A stretch of 39,714 nt of DNA from Clostridium sp. (lineage in GTDB: Bacteria; Bacillota; Clostridia; Clostridiales; Clostridiaceae). The notes under the pieces were generated by a model that saw only the letters and a program-made list of their open reading frames with translations, was not told where the DNA came from and searched no databases. The stretch spans positions 1 through 39,714 of the forward strand of contig NZ_JAENWM010000032.1 in the NCBI RefSeq assembly GCF_016650035.1, in the 5' to 3' direction. Shown here piece by piece: positions 271 through 29,903 of the stretch. The position numbers and the translations under genes are program-made. Numbering within the stretch: position 1 is the stretch's first letter; each line of letters opens with the position of its first letter.

Positions 271-1794
271 ATGAAGAAGGGTACTAACGTGATTGATAAG
301 AAGGGAAAAGGACAAGACGTCTATTTTATATCTCTAGCTTTAACCTTTATTATAGTTATTTGGGCAATAGTTGCAAAAGATAATTTTACTAATGTTTCAA
401 ATGGTTTACTTAAGTTTTTAACAGAAAATTTTGGATGGGCATATCTTGTATCGATGGTTATATTTGTTGGATTTTCTTTAACACTAGCATTTAGTAAGTA
501 TGGGAAGATTAAGCTAGGTGCGAATGATTCTAAACCTGACTACAGTAATGCTTCTTGGTTTGCAATGCTATTTGGAGCAGGAATGGGTATAGGACTTGTG
601 TTTTGGGGAGTATCAGAACCATTATCACATTTTATTGCACCACCTAATGGTATAACACCAGGAACTGAGGCAGCAGCAAATTTTGCAATGAAAGCTTCAT
701 TTATGCATTGGGGATTTCATCCTTGGGCAAATTACGCAATTATAGGCCTTGCTTTAGCATATTTTCAATATAGAAGGAATAAGCCTGCTCTTATAAGCAG
801 TATATTTGAACCACTTATAGGGGAAAAAGGGGTAAAAGGACCCTTAGGAAAAACTATAGATGTTCTTGCTATATTTGCAACAGTGGCAGGGATAGCTACG
901 TCATTAGGTCTTGGAACTATGCAAATAAATAGTGGGCTTAATTATTTATTTCAAATTCCAGAAACTCACACTGTACAGATACTAATAATATTAATAATCG
1001 CAATATGTTATATATGGACAGCAGTTAGTGGAATTGACAAGGGTATAAAAATAATTTCGGATGTTAATTTATATTTGGCAGGAGCCTTAATAGTTCTTGC
1101 ATTTTTAGTAGGACCAACACTAAAAATGATAAATACATTAACTGGTGGTATGGGTTTATACTTGAATGATATATTAAAAGATAGTTTAGCCATTAGCGCA
1201 TTTGGAGATAATTCTTGGCTAAATGGATGGAGAATATTCTATTGGGCATGGTGGATTGCATGGGCACCATTTGTAGGATCCTTCATAGCAAGAATATCTA
1301 AGGGCAGAACAATAAAAGAATTCGTCTTAGGGGTGGTTGTTGCTCCATCTGTGGCATCATTTATATGGTTTTCAGTATTTGGCGCAGCAGGCATAAACTT
1401 AGGAATTACAGGAGCTATGAGCATGGATTCTTTAAAGCAAATTGTAGCATCTCCTGAAACAGCACTTTTTATTATTATGGGTCATTATAAGTTTGGAACA
1501 ATATTATCATTGATTGCAACAGTTTTGCTGGTAACTTTCTTTATTACATCGGCTAACTCTGGTACCTTTGTTTTAGGAATGTTTTCATCAGGTGGAGATT
1601 TAAATCCATCAAATAGCAAAAAAATAATATGGGGAGTGGTCTTAGCACTATTGGCAGGTGCATTGTTACTAAGTGGAGGATTACAGTCACTTCAAACTAT
1701 TTCAGTGGCGGCAGCTTTCCCATTTATTTTCGTAATGTTATTTGCATGTGTATCCCTATGGAAAGCTTTAAAAAGCGAAGATATATCTTCTTAA
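271..1794 (+). CDS. BCCT family transporter, glycine betaine/choline type
   Basis: This 507-residue membrane protein has about 12 hydrophobic segments, the normal length of the betaine-choline-carnitine transporter family. Near residue 95 it has the glycine-rich stretch FGAGMGIGLVFWGVSEPL; GMGIG is characteristic of sodium-coupled members such as BetP. The family signature WAWWIAWAPFVGSFIARIS lies near residues 328-346. It lacks the long regulatory N- and C-terminal tails of osmosensing BetP. The ATG follows GAGGGGG at a good distance. It sits between two component B reductase genes, so its likely job is supplying betaine or a related methylated amine for reduction rather than osmoprotection (inference from context). 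It is followed by a strong terminator. Confidence 0.93.
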   Translation: MKKGTNVIDKKGKGQDVYFISLALTFIIVIWAIVAKDNFTNVSNGLLKFLTENFGWAYLVSMVIFVGFSLTLAFSKYGKIKLGANDSKPDYSNASWFAMLFGAGMGIGLVFWGVSEPLSHFIAPPNGITPGTEAAANFAMKASFMHWGFHPWANYAIIGLALAYFQYRRNKPALISSIFEPLIGEKGVKGPLGKTIDVLAIFATVAGIATSLGLGTMQINSGLNYLFQIPETHTVQILIILIIAICYIWTAVSGIDKGIKIISDVNLYLAGALIVLAFLVGPTLKMINTLTGGMGLYLNDILKDSLAISAFGDNSWLNGWRIFYWAWWIAWAPFVGSFIARISKGRTIKEFVLGVVVAPSVASFIWFSVFGAAGINLGITGAMSMDSLKQIVASPETALFIIMGHYKFGTILSLIATVLLVTFFITSANSGTFVLGMFSSGGDLNPSNSKKIIWGVVLALLAGALLLSGGLQSLQTISVAAAFPFIFVMLFACVSLWKALKSEDISS

Positions 1795-1822
1795 GCTAGA
1801 GTGGGCATATCTTAATAGATAA

Positions 1823-1853
1823 AAAAAACTAGGATATTTTCCTAGTTTTTTTT
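1823..1853 (+). terminator. Rho-independent terminator after the BCCT gene
   Basis: A stem around AAACTAGGA / TCCTAGTTT with a 5-nt loop is flanked by A-run and T-run. It ends in eight T, so it could act in both directions. Confidence 0.85.
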
Positions 1854-1940
1854 GTATCTTGAATTTATAAACCATGGACCTTTAAAGAAAACTAAGAACA
1901 AATTTAGCAAGAATATAACTTCTAGTTGCATTCTACGGGG

Positions 1941-1957
1941 TCGTGTCAGACACCTAA
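1941..1957. repeat. REP-like palindrome
   Basis: The short palindrome GTGTCAGACAC lies in a gene-free stretch (1860-2090) between the BCCT terminator and the GntR gene. Such motifs are often dispersed in clostridial genomes, and a related palindrome pair lies at 21073-21129. No transposase is nearby. Confidence 0.35.
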
Positions 1958-2105
1958 AAAAGAGGGGCTATGTAAAGTAGGAGAAAATGAAATTAGAGCT
2001 AGTAAAATCGTGTTTCAGCTCTGAGGTTCCGTAAAGCACCTTGTGTATTTTGATAAAAACAAATATAATAAGTAATGAGAATTTAATTTAAGGGGAATGA
2101 TTATA

Positions 2106-2744
2106 GTGGTTAGCAAATTGGATACAGAGAATATATATGAAATATTAAAACAGAGAATAATACATCTCAAGTATGATCCAGGGCAAGTTTTAAATGAGGT
2201 AGATATAGCTGCTGAGTTTAATATAAGTAGAACTCCCATAAGACGCGTGTTTCATCAATTACATAATGACAAACTCTTAAACATAGTACCAAGATTTGGA
2301 GCTCAAGTGACACCCATTGATTTTAAACAGATGAAATGTATATTTGAATTAACAAGGGAACTTGGTCCATTTGCAACTAGGCTTGCTGTGGAAAGAATAA
2401 GTGATGAGAACATTAAAGAACTTGAAGAAATAATGGCAAGGCTTGAAAGCTATGATATAAGCAAAGATTATCAAAGTGCTATAAATGATGATAATCGATT
2501 TCACACTATCATATTTTCGAGTTGTGATAATCCATGGCTTCAAGATAGTTTAACACAACTACATTATCATACAGAAAGGTTGTGGCATTATTGCGAACGC
2601 TATTTCGATAGCATGGATCTTTTCACTAATACTTTAGGAAAGGTATTAGAAGCAATAAAAGAAAAAGATACAGAAAAAGCAGAGAAATACGCCAGAGATC
2701 ATATAGATGAATTTGTACTAAAGATAAAAACAGATATGCTTTAG
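2106..2744 (+). CDS. GntR family transcriptional regulator (FadR/FCD-like)
   Basis: The N-terminal winged helix (residues about 5-70) shows typical GntR features: YEILKQRIIHLKYDPGQVLNE, then IAAEFNISRTPIRRVFHQL as the helix-turn-helix. The rest, about 140 residues, is a helical effector domain of the FCD type (ELTRELGPFATRLA; DDNRFHTIIFSSCDNPWLQD). The GTG at 2106 is preferred: the in-frame ATG at 2097 directly abuts its Shine-Dalgarno AAGGGG, while the GTG is spaced about 10 nt. The gene is monocistronic, with a 20-bp terminator stem after it. It lies directly upstream of grdX and the reductase genes in the same direction, so it probably senses a reductase substrate or product and controls that operon (inference). 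Confidence 0.88.
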   Translation: MVSKLDTENIYEILKQRIIHLKYDPGQVLNEVDIAAEFNISRTPIRRVFHQLHNDKLLNIVPRFGAQVTPIDFKQMKCIFELTRELGPFATRLAVERISDENIKELEEIMARLESYDISKDYQSAINDDNRFHTIIFSSCDNPWLQDSLTQLHYHTERLWHYCERYFDSMDLFTNTLGKVLEAIKEKDTEKAEKYARDHIDEFVLKIKTDML

Positions 2745-2754
2745 AAGTATTAAT

Positions 2755-2802
2755 AAAAACCTAATTTTAGATGATAAACCTCATCTAAAATTAGGTTTTT
2801 TT
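2755..2802 (+). terminator. Strong rho-independent terminator after the GntR gene
   Basis: A 20-bp perfect stem starts AAAAACCTAATTTTAG, has a 6-nt loop, and ends in seven T. It separates the regulator from the grd operon, which must therefore have its own promoter in 2803-2916. Confidence 0.92.
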
Positions 2803-2930
2803 AATTTTCTGAAAATTATTAATAATTTTACTGAAATATACTTGAAATACAATCAAAATACATGTAGAATGATAAGTGAAGACAATTGAGAAATATTTAA
2901 CAAAAACATAATGATAAAGGGGGGTAGTAG

Positions 2931-3314
2931 ATGTTATTCCAAATAGTAACTAACAATCCAAAAGTTAAAAGTACTTATAGTGACGTAATCTTTGTAGAAG
3001 GAAGTTTTGAAGATGTACTAGTGAAGGCACGTGATTTTGTACATTCAGGTTATAAACTAATTAATCATCCACTAGGTGCAAGTTTAAGAATGTTATTTTC
3101 TCCCTATCGTTCCATAATAATCGGTGAAAAGCAACAAAAGGCAGAGGACATGCATATAGCGACCATAGAAAACAGTATAGAAAACTATAGAAAGCATATG
3201 GAGGTGAGGTCACCAGATATAAAAAACTCAGAAGATTACGCTATGATTGATAGTGAACTATTAAAATCATCATTAGATGAGCATGAAAGAAATTTGTTAT
3301 TAAAAAACAACTAA
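2931..3314 (+). CDS. grdX: GrdX family protein
   Basis: This 127-residue soluble protein matches what is known of GrdX, a small protein of unknown function found at the head of glycine/sarcosine/betaine reductase operons. Recognisable stretches are IVTNNPKVKSTYSDVIFVEG, HPLGASLRMLFSPYRSIII and a charged C-terminal helical region. The ATG follows AAAGGGGGG. The next gene begins 20 nt after its stop, so it is co-transcribed with the component B genes. Its role is not established; position suggests assembly or regulation of the reductase. Confidence 0.88.
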   Translation: MLFQIVTNNPKVKSTYSDVIFVEGSFEDVLVKARDFVHSGYKLINHPLGASLRMLFSPYRSIIIGEKQQKAEDMHIATIENSIENYRKHMEVRSPDIKNSEDYAMIDSELLKSSLDEHERNLLLKNN

Positions 3315-3334
3315 TAAAATGGAGGTGATTTTCC

Positions 3335-4621
3335 TTGAAACTTGAATTAGGAAGAATTAATATTGTGGACATACAGCTAGGAAATGAAACTACTGTAAAG
3401 GGTGGTATCTTAACTGTAAATGAAAAGGAATTAATTTTAGAACTTAAGAAAGACGAGAATATCATAAATGTAAAGGTTGACATGGCTAGACCTGGTGAAA
3501 AGGTAAGAATAATTCCTGTTAAAGACGTTATTGAGCCAAGGGTGAAAATCGAAGGTGAAGGTAATGGATTTCCTGGTGTAACAACTAAGATAGCTCAGCT
3601 AGGATATGGAAAAGTTAATGTGCTTTATGGCGCAGCAATTGTAACCGTTGGAGATATAGTAGGTTTCCAGGAAGGTGTAGTTGATATGTGGGGAGAAGGC
3701 GCAAAGTGGACGCCATTTTCAAAAACATTTAATATAGTTTTGGATATTGAACCAGTAAAAGGACTAGCTCCACATGCTCATGAGAAAGTTGTTAGGCTTG
3801 CAGGACTTAGAGCCGCAGAATTTATTGGAGAAGCAGGAAGAAATGTAGAGCCAGATGAAATATTGACTTATGAAATGGGAAGTTATGCTGAGGAAAACAA
3901 GAAATATCCAGGCCTTCCAAAAGTAGCTTACGTAGAGATGCTTATTTCTCAAGGTCTACTTCATGATGGATATATTTATGGCGTTAATAGTCAACTTATA
4001 TTACCTACACTTTTGCATCCAAATGAAGAGTTAGATGGTGCAGTAATTAGTGGAAACTGTGTTGCAGCCTGTGATAAGATAACTACTTACCAACATCAAA
4101 ACAATACTGCAATTCTTGATTTATATAAAGAGCATGGAAAAACTATAAATTTCCTAGGTGTAATACTTACGCCAGAATTAACTACACTTGAAGGTAAATT
4201 TAGAACTTGTGATTATACAGCCAAGCTATGTAAGACCCTTGGAGCAGATGGAGTAATTATATCTGAAGAAGGATATGGTAATCCTGACTCCGATCTTCTG
4301 ATGATATGTAAGAGATTAGAAGTTGTAGGAATAAAGACTGTATTAATTACTGACGAATGTTCAGGTCGTGATGGTATGTCTCAACCACTAGCAGATACAA
4401 CAAAAGAGGCAATAGCAGTTATATCTACAGGTAATGTAAGTCATGTGGTTATACTACCACCTGCAGATAGAGTAATAGGAAATTCTTCCTCAATTGAAAC
4501 ACTTGCAGGAGGATGGGAAGGCTCAGTAGAAGCTGATGGAACTTTGAAGTGTGAGTTAAATGCAGTAATTGGAGCAACATCAGAAATAGGATATCACAAC
4601 TGTACAGTTAAATTATATTAA
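3335..4621 (+). CDS. grdI: Sarcosine/betaine reductase component B, alpha/beta-subunit proprotein
   Basis: This 428-residue protein belongs to the GrdE/GrdG/GrdI family. These are made as one chain and cleaved at an internal cysteine that becomes the pyruvoyl group binding the amine substrate as a Schiff base. The cleavage motif is visible as SGNCVAACDK, with Asn241-Cys242, at the position expected for the family. Other family features are PGEKVRIIPVKDVIEPRVK, GDIVGFQEGVVDMWG and EEGYGNPDSDL. It starts at a TTG preceded by GGAGGTGAT. The gamma-subunit gene starts 22 nt after its stop. The betaine assignment (grdI) over sarcosine (grdG) rests only on the neighbouring BCCT transporter and is uncertain. 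Confidence 0.87.
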   Translation: MKLELGRINIVDIQLGNETTVKGGILTVNEKELILELKKDENIINVKVDMARPGEKVRIIPVKDVIEPRVKIEGEGNGFPGVTTKIAQLGYGKVNVLYGAAIVTVGDIVGFQEGVVDMWGEGAKWTPFSKTFNIVLDIEPVKGLAPHAHEKVVRLAGLRAAEFIGEAGRNVEPDEILTYEMGSYAEENKKYPGLPKVAYVEMLISQGLLHDGYIYGVNSQLILPTLLHPNEELDGAVISGNCVAACDKITTYQHQNNTAILDLYKEHGKTINFLGVILTPELTTLEGKFRTCDYTAKLCKTLGADGVIISEEGYGNPDSDLLMICKRLEVVGIKTVLITDECSGRDGMSQPLADTTKEAIAVISTGNVSHVVILPPADRVIGNSSSIETLAGGWEGSVEADGTLKCELNAVIGATSEIGYHNCTVKLY

Positions 4622-4643
4622 GAAATTAGGGAGGAGGATGAAT

Positions 4644-5942
4644 ATGAAATTTAAAGTGTTATACTATGTAAATCAATTTTTCGGTCAAATTGGTGGCGAA
4701 GAAAAGGCTGATGTAGAGCCAATATTTAAGGCTGAAACTGTTGGACCAGCACTAGGATTTAATTCTATGCTTGAAGGAGAAGGGGAAGTTATTGGAACTC
4801 TAATTTGTGGAGATAACTACTTCAATGAAAATAAAGAAGAAGCACTAGAATATATTATGAAAGTTATGAAAGAGCAGAAACCAGATATAGTTGTTGCAGG
4901 GCCAGCATTTAATGCAGGTAGATATGGAATGGCTTGTGCTGGGGTTGCGAATGCTGTAGTAGATCAACTTGGTATTCCTGTAGTTACAGGTATGTATATA
5001 GAAAATCCAGGCTTAGATGTGTGCAGGGGTAAGGCATTGGTTGTTAGTGTACCAGATTCTGCTGTTGGAATGCGTAAAGCGTTACCTACAATGGCTAAAC
5101 TTACATTGAAACTAATGAGGAAAGAAGAAATCGGATCTCCAGAGGAAGAAGGGTATATATCTCAAGGTAAGAGACTTACTGTATTCTCTGATAAAAGAGG
5201 ATCAGAAAGAGCAGTAGATATGCTACTGGCACGATTAAATGATGAACCATTTAAAACTGAGCTTCCAATGCCAGTATTTGATAAAGTTGATCCAGCAGCA
5301 GCTATCAAAGATTTAAGCAAAGCAACTATAGCTTTAGTAACTAGTGGTGGTATGGTTCCATTTGGTAATCCTGATAGAATTCAATCTGCTAGTGCGCAAA
5401 AATGGGGTAAGTATGATGTAAGTGGAATAGATGCGCTTACTGGCAGTTACTGCACTATACATGGTGGATTTGATCCAGTATATGCAAATGAAGTGCCTGA
5501 TAGAATAGCACCTCTTGATATGTTAAAAGAATTTGAAAAAGAGGGAGTTATCGGCAAAGTATATAAGTATTTCTATACTACAACAGGTACTGGGACTTCT
5601 GTTGGTAATGCAATAACATTTGGTACTGAAATAGGAAAAGAACTAAAAGAAGCTGGAGTAGACGGAGTTATATTAACGTCAACATGAGGAACTTGTACAC
5701 GTTGCGGTGCAACGATGCTAAAAGAAATTGAAAGATACGGTATTACTGTAGTTCATATGTCCACTATAACAACTATATCTGAGTCAGTAGGTGCTAATAG
5801 AATTGTTCCAACTATTGCAATTCCTTACCCTGTTGGTAATCCTAATCTTCCAAAGGATGAAGAATATAGATTAAGAAAGAAAATGGTTGCGAGAACTTTA
5901 ACTGCATTAAGTACTGAAATAACAGAAATAACTCAATTTTAA
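4644..5942 (+). CDS. grdH: Selenoprotein component B gamma subunit of sarcosine/betaine reductase (UGA read as Sec)
   Basis: The frame runs from ATG 4644 to TAA 5942 with one in-frame TGA at 5685-5687, giving 432 residues with selenocysteine at about residue 348. Context around the TGA is LTST-U-GTCTRCGATMLKEIE, the UxxCxxxC redox motif of GrdB/GrdF/GrdH. The N-terminus (YYVNQFFGQIGGEEKADVEP) and VGANRIVPTIAIPYP near the end are also family hallmarks. In this family the selenol attacks the substrate carbon and passes a Se-carboxymethyl group to protein A. ATG 4644 is chosen over ATG 4638 because the latter overlaps the GGAGGAGG ribosome site. A recoding hairpin follows the TGA. The substrate (betaine or sarcosine) is uncertain. 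Confidence 0.93.
5685..5714 (+). promoter_or_regulatory. Bacterial SECIS element of the component B selenoprotein
   Basis: TGA at 5685 is followed, 12 nt later, by a perfect 6-bp stem (CGTTGC / GCAACG, 5700-5714) with loop GGT. The apical loop starts 18 nt after the UGA and opens with G, as expected for a bacterial SECIS that recruits SelB. Confidence 0.82.
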
Positions 5943-14713: not shown

Positions 14714-14967
14714 GCAAATTACCTCCAATTCACTTTTTATTCATCTATAGGAAATATTGAGTATTTACTTAATTATACAATAAAATCCTATGAATTTCAA
14801 ATATTAAGTAAAATTAAATGCAACCTGTATAATTTTGCTTATAGCTGTAATTGCTAATAAAAACAATAAAAAAAGTAGTAGGGATTATCTGAAAATTACT
14901 TTTATTAGAGTAACAAAATAACGAAATCGGAATAATATAAAGCGTGAATATTATTTTGGAGGTACTT

Positions 14968-15477
14968 ATGTACAACTATAGTTCTAAAGACTATGAAAAT
15001 TATGGACAGAAAATGCCAATGAGGGATATGCCTATGATGGATATGCCTATGTCGAATATGCAAATGATGGATATGCCTATGATGCATATGGCTATGATGA
15101 ATATGATGATGATGATGAATATGCCAAAGTGTGATGAATATGATGATGATGACGATGAAAGTGACAAAGATTTAAAAAGCATGTATCCTAAGATTCATAC
15201 CAGGATATATCCCATGGTAAAGTATCATTGTGATATGATGGAGTCAATGCATGGCACAATGTATTGCCCAAGTAAGCAGGAATTGGATCATATTTGTAAA
15301 GAAATATGTGACAGATACGAGAAACACGATAGAGAAGACGACGAAGATTGCAATGATGATAATTTGAGGCAAATTGGAAGAGGTTTATTTGGGGATTTAG
15401 TCAAAATACTGTTTATCAGAGATTTACTTGGAAGAAGAAGAAGAAGAAGAAGATTTAATCATGGATATCAGGATTAG
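14968..15477 (+). CDS. Methionine-rich protein with acidic centre and poly-arginine tail
   Basis: A 169-residue protein starts at ATG 14968, behind GGAGGT. Residues about 17-52 are methionine-dense with DMPM/NMQM/DMPM/MMHM repeats and a run of five Met. An acidic stretch (DEYDDDDDES) follows, then a conserved-looking domain (YPMVKYHCDMMESMHGTMYC and CKEICDRYEKHD). The end is basic with seven consecutive Arg. Six Cys and several His suggest metal binding or cross-linking. It lies beside sporulation genes and resembles the low-complexity proteins of spore coats, so a coat or spore-surface role is likely but inferred. It has its own terminator. Confidence 0.72.
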   Translation: MYNYSSKDYENYGQKMPMRDMPMMDMPMSNMQMMDMPMMHMAMMNMMMMMNMPKCDEYDDDDDESDKDLKSMYPKIHTRIYPMVKYHCDMMESMHGTMYCPSKQELDHICKEICDRYEKHDREDDEDCNDDNLRQIGRGLFGDLVKILFIRDLLGRRRRRRRFNHGYQD

Positions 15478-27201: not shown

Positions 27202-27404
27202 AATTATGTCACTTCCATTCTATAAATATTAAACTACTTATCACTATTATTATAAACCATAAAGTAATATTAAAGCTATTTAAAAAAATGTTGTGCAAAA
27301 AGAATAATAATACCTATTGACATTAGAGCTAGTCCAAGGTTTATGATTTGCTTAGATGAATTTTAATGATTCTATCAATAATATTACAAAAGGGGAATAC
27401 TATC

Positions 27405-28676
27405 ATGAGCGGATATAACGCAGTATTAGCAAGAAATACGGAAAATGCTCCAAAAGGTATCGGTCCATATTCACAAACGGTAGCTTACTCTCATTACAAT
27501 AATCTTTCAGCTCAATTACCTATCGATCCGAAATCTGGTGAATTGGTAACTGGTGGTGTAAAAGAGCAGGCTGACCAGTGTTTTAAAAATATCAAGGCAA
27601 TTGTAAATAGCATCGGCCATGTTATGAGCGATGTTGTTAGAATCACTGTATTTGTTAAGAATATCAAAGATATTGATGCTGTAGACGAAGTTTATAAAAA
27701 ATTCTTCACAAGCTATGTTCCTACACGGACTATAGTCGCAGTTGCAGCTTTGCCTATGAATGCTTTGGTGCAAATTGATGCACTTGTTACAAACGGCGAA
27801 GGTACAATTCCAAACGCACCACAATCAGGCGACCTCATAAAGCTTACAAATAACACTGCTAATGCGCCAACAAGTGCTCTATCTACGCAAGCTGTAGCTT
27901 TTTCTCATTACAATAATATTTCAGCACAATTACCTATCGATGCAAAATCTGGTAGACTTATAGTGGGCGGTGTAAAAGAGCAAGCTGGACAGTGCTTAAA
28001 GAATATTAAGGCAATTTTAGAAAGTATCGATGTTCCTTTTGACGATATTGTTAAAATTAACATATTCCTTAAAAACTTCTCGGATATTGAAGCCGTAAAT
28101 GAAGTTTATACAACATTTTTCCCAGACTCAGCTATCGCAAGAGCCGTAGCTTATGTACCTGCACGGACAACAGTTGCAGTTTCAGCTTTACCTATGGATG
28201 CTTTGGTACAAATTGAAGCAGTGGTGTCACACGGAGATGGTACACCACCACAACTTGTTGAAGACAGACATGGACTAATTATAGAAGCAAACAATACGGA
28301 AAATGCACCCAAAAGTTCACTATCTACACAAACTGTAGCTTTTTCTCATTACAATCATATTTCAGCTCAATTACCTTTAGATCCAAAAACTGCTGATATG
28401 GTAGCGGGTGGTGTAAAAGAGCAGGCTGGACAGTGCTTAAAAAATATCAAGGCAATTATAGAAAGTGTCGATCACGTTATGGATGATGTGGTTAAAGTGA
28501 ATATCTTCCTTAAAAATATTGTAGATATTGATGCTGTAGACGGAGTTTACACAACATTCTTCCCAGGCGGTGTTCCTGCACGAACAATGGTTGGAGTATC
28601 AGTTTTACCTAACGATGCTTTAGTGCAAATCGATGCAGTTGTAGCAAATGCTGAAGGAACACCTCCACAAGCATAA
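27405..28676 (+). CDS. Triple RidA (YjgF/YER057c) domain fusion protein
   Basis: A 423-residue protein from ATG 27405 (better spaced from AAAAGGGG than ATG 27366) with three consecutive RidA domains, about 1-140, 150-295 and 300-423. RidA proteins normally have about 125 residues and form trimers with active sites between subunits, deaminating reactive enamines and imines. Each unit keeps HYNNxSAQLP-like, GGVKEQAxQC and xPxRTxVxVxxLP motifs with the substrate Arg. Only domain 1 has the classic GPYSQ; domains 2 and 3 read ALSTQ and SLSTQ. The usual late Glu is Asp in domains 1 and 3, and Glu in domain 2. A single-chain pseudo-trimer is the likely result. Confidence 0.93.
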   Translation: MSGYNAVLARNTENAPKGIGPYSQTVAYSHYNNLSAQLPIDPKSGELVTGGVKEQADQCFKNIKAIVNSIGHVMSDVVRITVFVKNIKDIDAVDEVYKKFFTSYVPTRTIVAVAALPMNALVQIDALVTNGEGTIPNAPQSGDLIKLTNNTANAPTSALSTQAVAFSHYNNISAQLPIDAKSGRLIVGGVKEQAGQCLKNIKAILESIDVPFDDIVKINIFLKNFSDIEAVNEVYTTFFPDSAIARAVAYVPARTTVAVSALPMDALVQIEAVVSHGDGTPPQLVEDRHGLIIEANNTENAPKSSLSTQTVAFSHYNHISAQLPLDPKTADMVAGGVKEQAGQCLKNIKAIIESVDHVMDDVVKVNIFLKNIVDIDAVDGVYTTFFPGGVPARTMVGVSVLPNDALVQIDAVVANAEGTPPQA

Positions 28677-28807: not shown

Positions 28808-29009
28808 ACAGCGTAGCGAATATGATTATTTTGTAATATTTGTAAAAAAGCAATATACCTTGCGATAAAGTCTTTTATTTTCTTGTAAGTGGTTTCTACA
28901 ATAAATATCTTTTTTATAATATGCTTATGTGATATTATTTATAATGTTAGGTAATATAATCTATCTGTAAAAACTCATAATTTTAATATATTGAAAGGAT
29001 GTGATCTTT

Positions 29010-29315
29010 ATGCAATTTTTAGTTACTGCTTATGATGGAATTGACGAAGAATCTATTGAAAGAAGGCTTACCGCTAGAGATGAGCACTTAGCGCTTGTGG
29101 AGTCTATGTTTAACAGTGGAACACACTTGTATGCAGCTGCTATAACGGACGATAATGATAAGATGATAGGTTCAGTTCTTATAGTTGACTTTCCTTCTAG
29201 ATGCGAGCTCGATGAATGGCTTAAAGTAGAACCATATGTACTGGGAAAGGTTTGGGATAAGATTGAGATTAAACCTTGCAAGGTAGGCCCTATATTTTTA
29301 GCGTTACATAAATAG
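29010..29315 (+). CDS. YciI family protein
   Basis: A 101-residue protein from ATG 29010, preceded by AAGGATGTGAT. The alpha/beta ferredoxin-like YciI fold is recognisable: FLVTAYDGID, LTARDEHLALVESMFNSGT, GSVLIVDFPSRCELDEWLK. YciI-like proteins bind small ligands and some are dehydrochlorinase- or muconolactone-isomerase-like; the catalytic Asp/His pair is not certain here. It is a single gene with its own terminator. Role unknown. Confidence 0.85.
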   Translation: MQFLVTAYDGIDEESIERRLTARDEHLALVESMFNSGTHLYAAAITDDNDKMIGSVLIVDFPSRCELDEWLKVEPYVLGKVWDKIEIKPCKVGPIFLALHK

Positions 29316-29508: not shown

Positions 29509-29628
29509 ACTGATTAAATAAAGTTTGAAATTGTTAAGTAAATATTATCTAATAATATTTATTTTCAAAATTAAATTTTGTTAATTAGGGTATAATATAC
29601 AAGAAAATAATATTTAGGAGGCGGTAAA

Positions 29629-29862
29629 ATGAAAAAAGTCATTATTTATTCAACAACTACATGACCATGGTGTACAAAGGTAAAGGATTACCTAAATTCT
29701 AAAAATGTACCCTATGAGGATTATAATGTTGGTAAAGACCATGAAAAAGCAATGGAAATGGTTAACAAGTCAGGACAACAAGGTGTTCCAGTTCTTGATA
29801 TTGAGGGACATATTGTAGTGGGCTTTGATCAAAAAAATATTGATAATTTACTAGGATTGTAA
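29629..29862 (+). CDS. Selenocysteine-containing glutaredoxin (UGA read as Sec)
   Basis: From ATG 29629 (behind TAGGAGGCGG) the frame has a single in-frame TGA at 29662-29664 and ends at TAA 29862, giving 77 residues. It reads KKVIIYSTTT-U-PWCTKVKDYL; U-P-W-C is the glutaredoxin CPxC active site with Cys replaced by Sec at residue 12. GVPVLDIEGH gives the cis-proline (residue 54) of the thioredoxin fold, and the end reads GFDQKNIDNLLG. Clostridial selenocysteine glutaredoxins are known. They reduce disulfides or support selenoenzymes. The UGA truncates the frame, so standard gene callers would miss it. A terminator follows. Confidence 0.92.
29662..29693 (+). promoter_or_regulatory. Bacterial SECIS element of the glutaredoxin
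   Basis: TGA is followed by a perfect 6-bp stem (AGGTAA 29678-29683 / TTACCT 29688-29693) with loop AGGA. The loop begins 19 nt after the UGA and has G at its second position. Distance and loop match the component B element at 5685. Confidence 0.72.
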
Positions 29863-29867
29863 TAATG

Positions 29868-29903
29868 AAAAAGATAATAGGGCTTGCCTTATTATCTTTT
29901 TTA
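29868..29903 (+). terminator. Terminator after the glutaredoxin gene
   Basis: AAAAGATAATA pairs with TATTATCTTTT around a GC-containing loop, followed by a T-run. Confidence 0.85.

Follow-up and report, generated by a model that had tools for sequence, protein, structure and literature searches.

A probable selenocysteine glutaredoxin of the YruB family in a Clostridium genome

The DNA analyzed here, a stretch of 39,714 nucleotides referred to below as the window, is contig C122 of the 3.97-Mb, 167-contig genome of a Clostridium sp., and comparison with related sequences indicates that one of its small genes very probably encodes a selenocysteine (Sec)-containing redoxin of the YruB/Cp9 kind (Table 1). 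Glutaredoxins with Sec are already known from a few bacteria, and the window gene adds a convincing further example of this type. A well-supported selenoprotein that plain open reading frame (ORF) calling drops is gained in this way.

Table 1 Features of the window that are discussed in the text
Feature	Position	Strand	Basis
Predicted YruB-family glutaredoxin, 77 aa, Sec at residue 12 (UPWC), TAA stop	29629..29862	+	Sequence, family searches
In-frame TGA read as putative Sec, nucleophilic Cys position	29662..29664	+	Codon comparison with relatives
Shine-Dalgarno sequence AGGAGG	29616..29621	+	7 nt 5' of ATG 29629
Intrinsic terminator-like hairpin and T tract, 3' of the glutaredoxin gene	29866..29903	+	Fold
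Bacterial SECIS-type hairpin, stem AGGTAA/TTACCT, loop AGGA, 19 nt from TGA to loop	29678..29693	+	Sequence, fold, conservation
Glycine/sarcosine/betaine reductase selenoprotein B, in-frame TGA 5685-5687; separate selenoprotein	4638..5942	+	Family search, fold
YciI-family gene, 5' of the glutaredoxin gene; relevance putative	29001..29315	+	Family search, relative's locus

The TGA at codon 12, within the motif TTTUPWC, is the sole in-frame stop of the glutaredoxin frame, and homology to glutaredoxins runs on past it to residue 77 of the predicted product, MKKVIIYSTTTUPWCTKVKDYLNSKNVPYEDYNVGKDHEKAMEMVNKSGQQGVPVLDIEGHIVVGFDQKNIDNLLGL. The coordinates, the number of codons and the single TGA in place of the nucleophilic Cys, as given in a preliminary description of this DNA, were exact on re-reading, and the strong ribosome site that it reported was found again. 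The gene's own terminator, also claimed there, agrees with a predicted fold of 17 bp (−17.9 kcal/mol) followed by T's, even though the pattern scanner does not include this hairpin in its list. The same scanner listed no plus-strand promoter-like site for the gene, and by eye a TATAAT without a good −35 element was seen at 29591-29596. A plain listing of table-11 ORFs down to 20 aa yields from this frame only a 36-aa C-terminal remnant (29752-29862); therefore, routine gene calling would be expected to skip the glutaredoxin or shorten it, as had been anticipated.

The Sec machinery, whose absence from the genome the preliminary description had named as decisive counter-evidence, is complete on contig C130. 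The selD, selA and selB genes form one cluster there, all over their NCBIfam cut-offs, and the tRNA-Sec gene (selC) follows selB with 61.4 bits against a gathering score of 47. The first gene of this cluster (L096, 253-1281) itself contains an in-frame TGA, which falls in the SelD stretch MEKRLTELSKTSGUAAKIG, so that the genome holds at least three TGA selenoprotein genes, namely, those for the glutaredoxin, SelD and the reductase selenoprotein B. Among related genomes, selB was over the cut-off in 9/9 named genomes with the TGA form vs 0/9 with the Cys form only; counted by rows with scorable selB, it was present in 14/14 TGA rows vs 16/37 Cys rows, G055 being left out because its selB match is cut by a contig end (the tRNA-Sec of this genome scored 63.5). 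On the three well-supported Sec/Cys contrasts of the tree described below, selB differs in 0.8 on average; these contrasts are too few, and the association with selB is therefore not independent proof.

The TGA is shared by homologues in other genomes. A scan of the genome_contigs collection returned 59 related loci, nine with TGA at codon 12 (Tissierella creatinophila, Gudongella, two Soehngenia, an unclassified Bacillota, two other Tissierellales, Acetomicrobium and a Synergistaceae) and the other 50 with Cys, and a search of 60 genomes of relatives found a homologue in 37 and an inner TGA in six, the genome under study included; an additional TAA counted for G041 proved to be the normal stop of that gene. 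When these were pooled, after removal of matches that miss codon 12 and of identical copies, 93 distinct rows were obtained, 15 with TGA (own plus 14 fetched) and 78 with Cys, so that the Cys homologues whose search had been proposed do exist; the TGA loci span Bacillota and Synergistota. G008 and G010, two genomes of the same genus, lack a selB over the cut-off, and their homologues, which are 61-63% identical, have Cys. The genome under study also has two intact Cys paralogues, both on C144, as well as another glutaredoxin on C33. Plasmid and phage records gave 40 and 22 matches, respectively, all below 60% identity; the one examined among them, from Acetoanaerobium noterae, has the Cys form.

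In a tree of 94 short proteins over 77 columns, in which many forks are unresolved, the distribution of Sec and Cys needs eight changes, at least three of them forced by supported branches. Two cases are of special use. Acetomicrobium hydrogeniformans has a Sec copy (L042) and a Cys copy (L037) on one contig, with the full hairpin only in L042, and G039, which has Cys, a broken hairpin and selB, groups with the Sec genes of G041, G047 and G052. Together, these genes offer a compact natural series on when and why selenium replaces sulfur.

The hairpin downstream of the TGA is positioned as the preliminary description had it, with six base pairs, the loop AGGA and the first stem base at +14 after the TGA. 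Its length, its loop and the 19-nt distance from TGA to loop fit the bacterial SECIS geometry as set out in the accessible part of PMC13188914, and its energy, −5.0 kcal/mol, falls short of the −7.5 required by the model in the same part of that paper. A 51-nt piece folds to −7.9, a value equaled or surpassed by 62 of 200 shuffles (z −0.39). Synonymous recoding with the codon usage of the window (200,000 draws) produced all six pairs in exact register in 26.7% and some bSECIS-like hairpin in 19.1% of the draws. As stand-alone proof of Sec, the hairpin was therefore rejected in view of the exact-register frequency and the fold z-score, and its weight is judged, from the aligned sequences, to come from conservation across relatives rather than from the stem alone.

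This conservation is pronounced. All six pairs are formed in 14/15 TGA genes vs 1/48 Cys homologues that share 45% identity or more (30 of the 78 Cys rows lie below this threshold and were left out), a contrast with a Fisher p of 6e-12 if relatedness is ignored. In the 14 TGA genes, standard pairs occupy 84/84 stem cells, with one compensatory GC-to-AU double change in three sister rows that is probably a single event. The codons GTA AAG GAT are identical in all 14 TGA genes of the hairpin set and TAC is kept in 13 of them, whereas only one of seven Cys genes with a similar peptide keeps all four codons. The exception is L080, which is distantly related, has TGA in a UPHC motif and lacks this hairpin in the register in question; it was left out of alignment A1 (14/15 TGA rows). 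Across the three supported contrasts of the tree, hairpin and Sec coincide in 2.8 on average; with so few contrasts, a sign test does not reach significance.

Family searches place the product among the glutaredoxins (Pfam PF00462, E 2.6e-18, 66.4 bits vs a cut-off of 22.9) and, with C in place of U in the query, in the NCBIfam YruB family (TIGR02196, 97 bits, above the cut-off of 88.55). The Grx3 model (53.4 vs 90), the NrdH model TIGR02194 (43 vs 85.75) and all three UXX-star models (NF041212, 54.8/66; NF041114, 39.5/72; NF041211, 31.5/100) remained below their cut-offs. The UXX-star selenoproteins are likewise small glutaredoxin-like (seleno)proteins, but the window redoxin keeps its resolving Cys and differs from them in these scores. 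NrdH redoxins combine a glutaredoxin-like fold with dependence on thioredoxin reductase (TrxR); no nrd genes were seen by eye among the ORFs of the window.

Among solved structures, the best match is 7c10 (E 2.5e-15; 42% identity over 76), which carries CPHC at residues 13-16 (C13/C16), and 7c12 carries CPHS. Their motif and numbering suggest that 7c10, 7c12 and 7c13 are probably cGrx1 of Clostridium (Alkaliphilus) oremlandii, the PDB table naming no organism. This protein is a native selenoprotein of which a C16S mutant was crystallized, according to the available portion of PMC7642778, and U13C/C16S forms are described as well (PMC4479559). The window product resembles cGrx1 as a full-length homologue from an anaerobe with Sec first in UPxC and a conserved resolving Cys. 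It differs in having UPWC where cGrx1 has UPHC and in falling in another, weakly resolved part of the tree; moreover, cGrx1 serves a Sec-MsrA (PMC7642778, same portion), whereas the MsrA match of the genome studied here is without TGA. The second close system is the Cp34-Cp9-Cp20 system of Clostridium pasteurianum, as presented in the consulted sections of PMC3720550, the redoxin Cp9 of which is also small and has the motif CP[YW]C. Cp9 uses Cys instead of Sec and is encoded between a TrxR and a peroxiredoxin (Prx) gene; the window gene lies outside any such Cp34-Cp9-Prx arrangement, has no neighbor of this kind and is followed by its own terminator-like hairpin. That Cp9 and the YruB proteins are one kind is our reading of the motif and the gene order.

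Earlier surveys bear out the preliminary statement that Sec glutaredoxins are known from a few clostridia. A Sec glutaredoxin family is tabulated in the accessible pages of PMC1794560, with Alkaliphilus metalliredigenes (two), Geobacter sulfurreducens and Moorella thermoacetica named, and cGrx1 adds to it (excerpt of PMC7642778); Grx UxxC appears among the listed selenoproteins in the part of PMC13188914 cited above, and ten environmental Sec glutaredoxin sequences are counted in the available text of PMC1088965. A literature search with the active-site motif words gave matches that, among those listed, were unrelated by title, and no claim of an unreported subgroup is made.

The window contains a second Sec-related locus. 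At 271-5942, a reductase B cluster comprises a glycine-betaine BCCT transporter (NF047988, over the cut-off), a GntR-type regulator and a GrdX-like protein (both assigned by eye, the latter without a Pfam match), a PF09338 protein and a PF07355 protein with the TGA at 5685. The B subunits of this cluster are below the glycine-, sarcosine- and betaine-type cut-offs alike, and the hairpin of the reductase gene, CGTTGC-GGT-GCAACG, has a spacing similar to that of the glutaredoxin. Elsewhere, at the start of contig C6 (L120, C6:1-3055), a grdX gene (NF038093), which is the second grdX of the genome, stands together with trxB (over the cut-off) and a trxA-like gene (by eye), and C6 ends 193 bases past trxA. 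The set grdX-trxB-trxA is the usual donor set of glycine/betaine-type reductases. GrdA (PF04723) was not found in the own genome (G000), either in a first search in which no control gave a signal or in a second one over ten genomes, own included, seven of which had it; given how close the locus lies to the contig end, its absence is perhaps an assembly gap.

These data allow three other explanations to be weighed. If the gene were a pseudogene, or the TGA a sequencing error in a Cys glutaredoxin, a single base between TGC or TGT and TGA would suffice, and the genome does have the two intact Cys paralogues on C144 and the further glutaredoxin on C33. This explanation would, however, have to account for the identical TGA in 14 other fetched loci of Bacillota and Synergistota, for a frame with no other disabling change, for the conservation of synonymous codons 3' of the TGA, and for a genome that holds Sec machinery as well as two further TGA selenoproteins, and it is considered highly improbable.

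The two remaining explanations accept the recoding and concern the partners of the protein. A classical glutathione-dependent glutaredoxin would be compatible with membership in PF00462 and with the naming of glutathione as the reductant for cGrx1-type motifs in the portion of PMC7642778 already mentioned. Nevertheless, the genome has no PF04262 glutamate-cysteine ligase (the E. coli control was positive), and the sequence falls well short of the Grx3 model while exceeding the YruB cut-off, which makes glutathione dependence rather unlikely. In addition, a VGFD sequence close to the C-terminal end is reminiscent of NrdH rather than of the GG-DD of glutaredoxins. Still less probable is a role as partner of the glycine/betaine reductase cluster, for example, in reducing its selenoproteins. 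The two genes share the window, the use of Sec and a similar TGA-to-stem spacing (12-13 nt), and seven of the nine other genomes with a TGA glutaredoxin that were searched have GrdA, so that co-occurrence does not exclude such a link. On the other hand, the genes are 23.7 kb apart, the expected donor set is that on C6, and no grd gene was seen by eye within 3.5 kb of the glutaredoxin at the 14 fetched Sec loci, as far as each reaches. The connection that the preliminary description drew from a common SECIS geometry was not supported, as both hairpins simply fit the general bacterial model. A link between the glutaredoxin and the reductase is thus regarded as unlikely.

The reading of the gene product as a selenocysteine redoxin of the YruB/Cp9 kind leads to the following proposed mechanism. 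The UGA at codon 12 would be decoded as Sec by SelA, SelB, SelC and SelD, directed by the downstream hairpin; the comparison of relatives strongly supports this decoding, with the insertion itself being inferred. By analogy with the family and with C. oremlandii Grx1, the selenolate of Sec12 would attack a disulfide, sulfenic acid or selenenyl-sulfide of the client, and Cys15 would resolve the mixed bond. A TrxR-like flavoprotein, and not glutathione, would then return the oxidized redoxin to its reduced form. In C. pasteurianum, an NADH-dependent TrxR supplies electrons to Cp9, which hands them on to a peroxiredoxin, as stated in the sections of PMC3720550 consulted.

With duplicate regional loci and matches below 35% identity left out, 13/68 Cys loci, including that of one C144 paralogue of the genome studied here, have a TrxR-like gene no more than 400 nt from the Cys homologue; at the 15 Sec loci, that of the window among them, no such gene was found within this distance. 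The difference between Sec and Cys loci in this adjacency is too thin to be claimed. Since the 15 Sec loci have no TrxR neighbor, the donor is deduced from the Cys relatives, and it is quite likely a TrxR-like flavoprotein. On C144, one Cys paralogue adjoins a TrxR-like protein, which at 340.7 bits narrowly misses the cut-off of 343.45, and the other adjoins a peroxiredoxin. A TrxR-like protein encoded on C68 was compared with the flavoprotein next to the G008 Cys homologue; no significant similarity was seen, and orthology of the two was rejected.

As clients, peroxiredoxins and methionine sulfoxide reductases, and not the glycine/betaine reductase, are proposed, a choice that may prove right or wrong with about equal chance. 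Neither the only MsrA match of the genome nor any of its seven AhpC-TSA (peroxiredoxin) matches contains a TGA. A tandem Sec-MsrA as in C. oremlandii is accordingly not repeated here, and a Sec peroxiredoxin in the same genome was likewise rejected. Combined, these proposals describe a Sec version of the Cp9 redoxin that would be independent of glutathione, fed by a TrxR-like protein and engaged in methionine-sulfoxide and peroxide repair, with several switches between Sec and Cys in anaerobes and the SECIS element kept or lost accordingly; this complete picture is advanced only tentatively.

The neighborhoods of the TGA glutaredoxin genes provide a hint as to the clients. In G041, G047 and G052, which have the TGA form, and in G039, which has Cys, a gene for a GAF protein, one DNA-methylase-like gene and the glutaredoxin gene follow each other on the same strand. 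The GAF protein of G052, the only one tested, is homologous to free methionine-R-sulfoxide reductases (fRMsr) and matches PDB 3ksf, 1vhm and 3mmh, of which 3mmh is named methionine-R-sulfoxide reductase; the GAF (fRMsr-like) gene near the TGA glutaredoxin may thus point to a client. Locus L104 of G029 carries a distantly related redoxin gene (5421-5648, minus strand) with TGA in UPHC and no AGGA hairpin; a thiol peroxidase gene is found at a distance of ~1.1 kb, on the other strand and with one gene between. The YciI-family gene of the window has a counterpart 5' of the TGA glutaredoxin gene in the order-level relative G055 (56% identical protein). Other neighbors of TGA glutaredoxin genes vary and include Hsp20, DUF134, Mrp, glucose-6-phosphate isomerase and, by eye, an RND-type transporter.

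Some additional observations are recorded here in their own right. The block of a GAF protein (fRMsr-like in L102, the one locus tested), a DNA-methylase-like protein and the glutaredoxin is seen in L101, L102, L103 and L105 with DUF4438 nearby, the glutaredoxin having Sec in three of these loci and Cys in one. In the window itself, positions 27366-28676 encode one protein with three tandem RidA (PF01042) domains, and positions 14944-15477 encode a methionine-rich repeat protein (MPMRDMPMMDMPMSNMQMMDMP) that is perhaps related to the spore coat.
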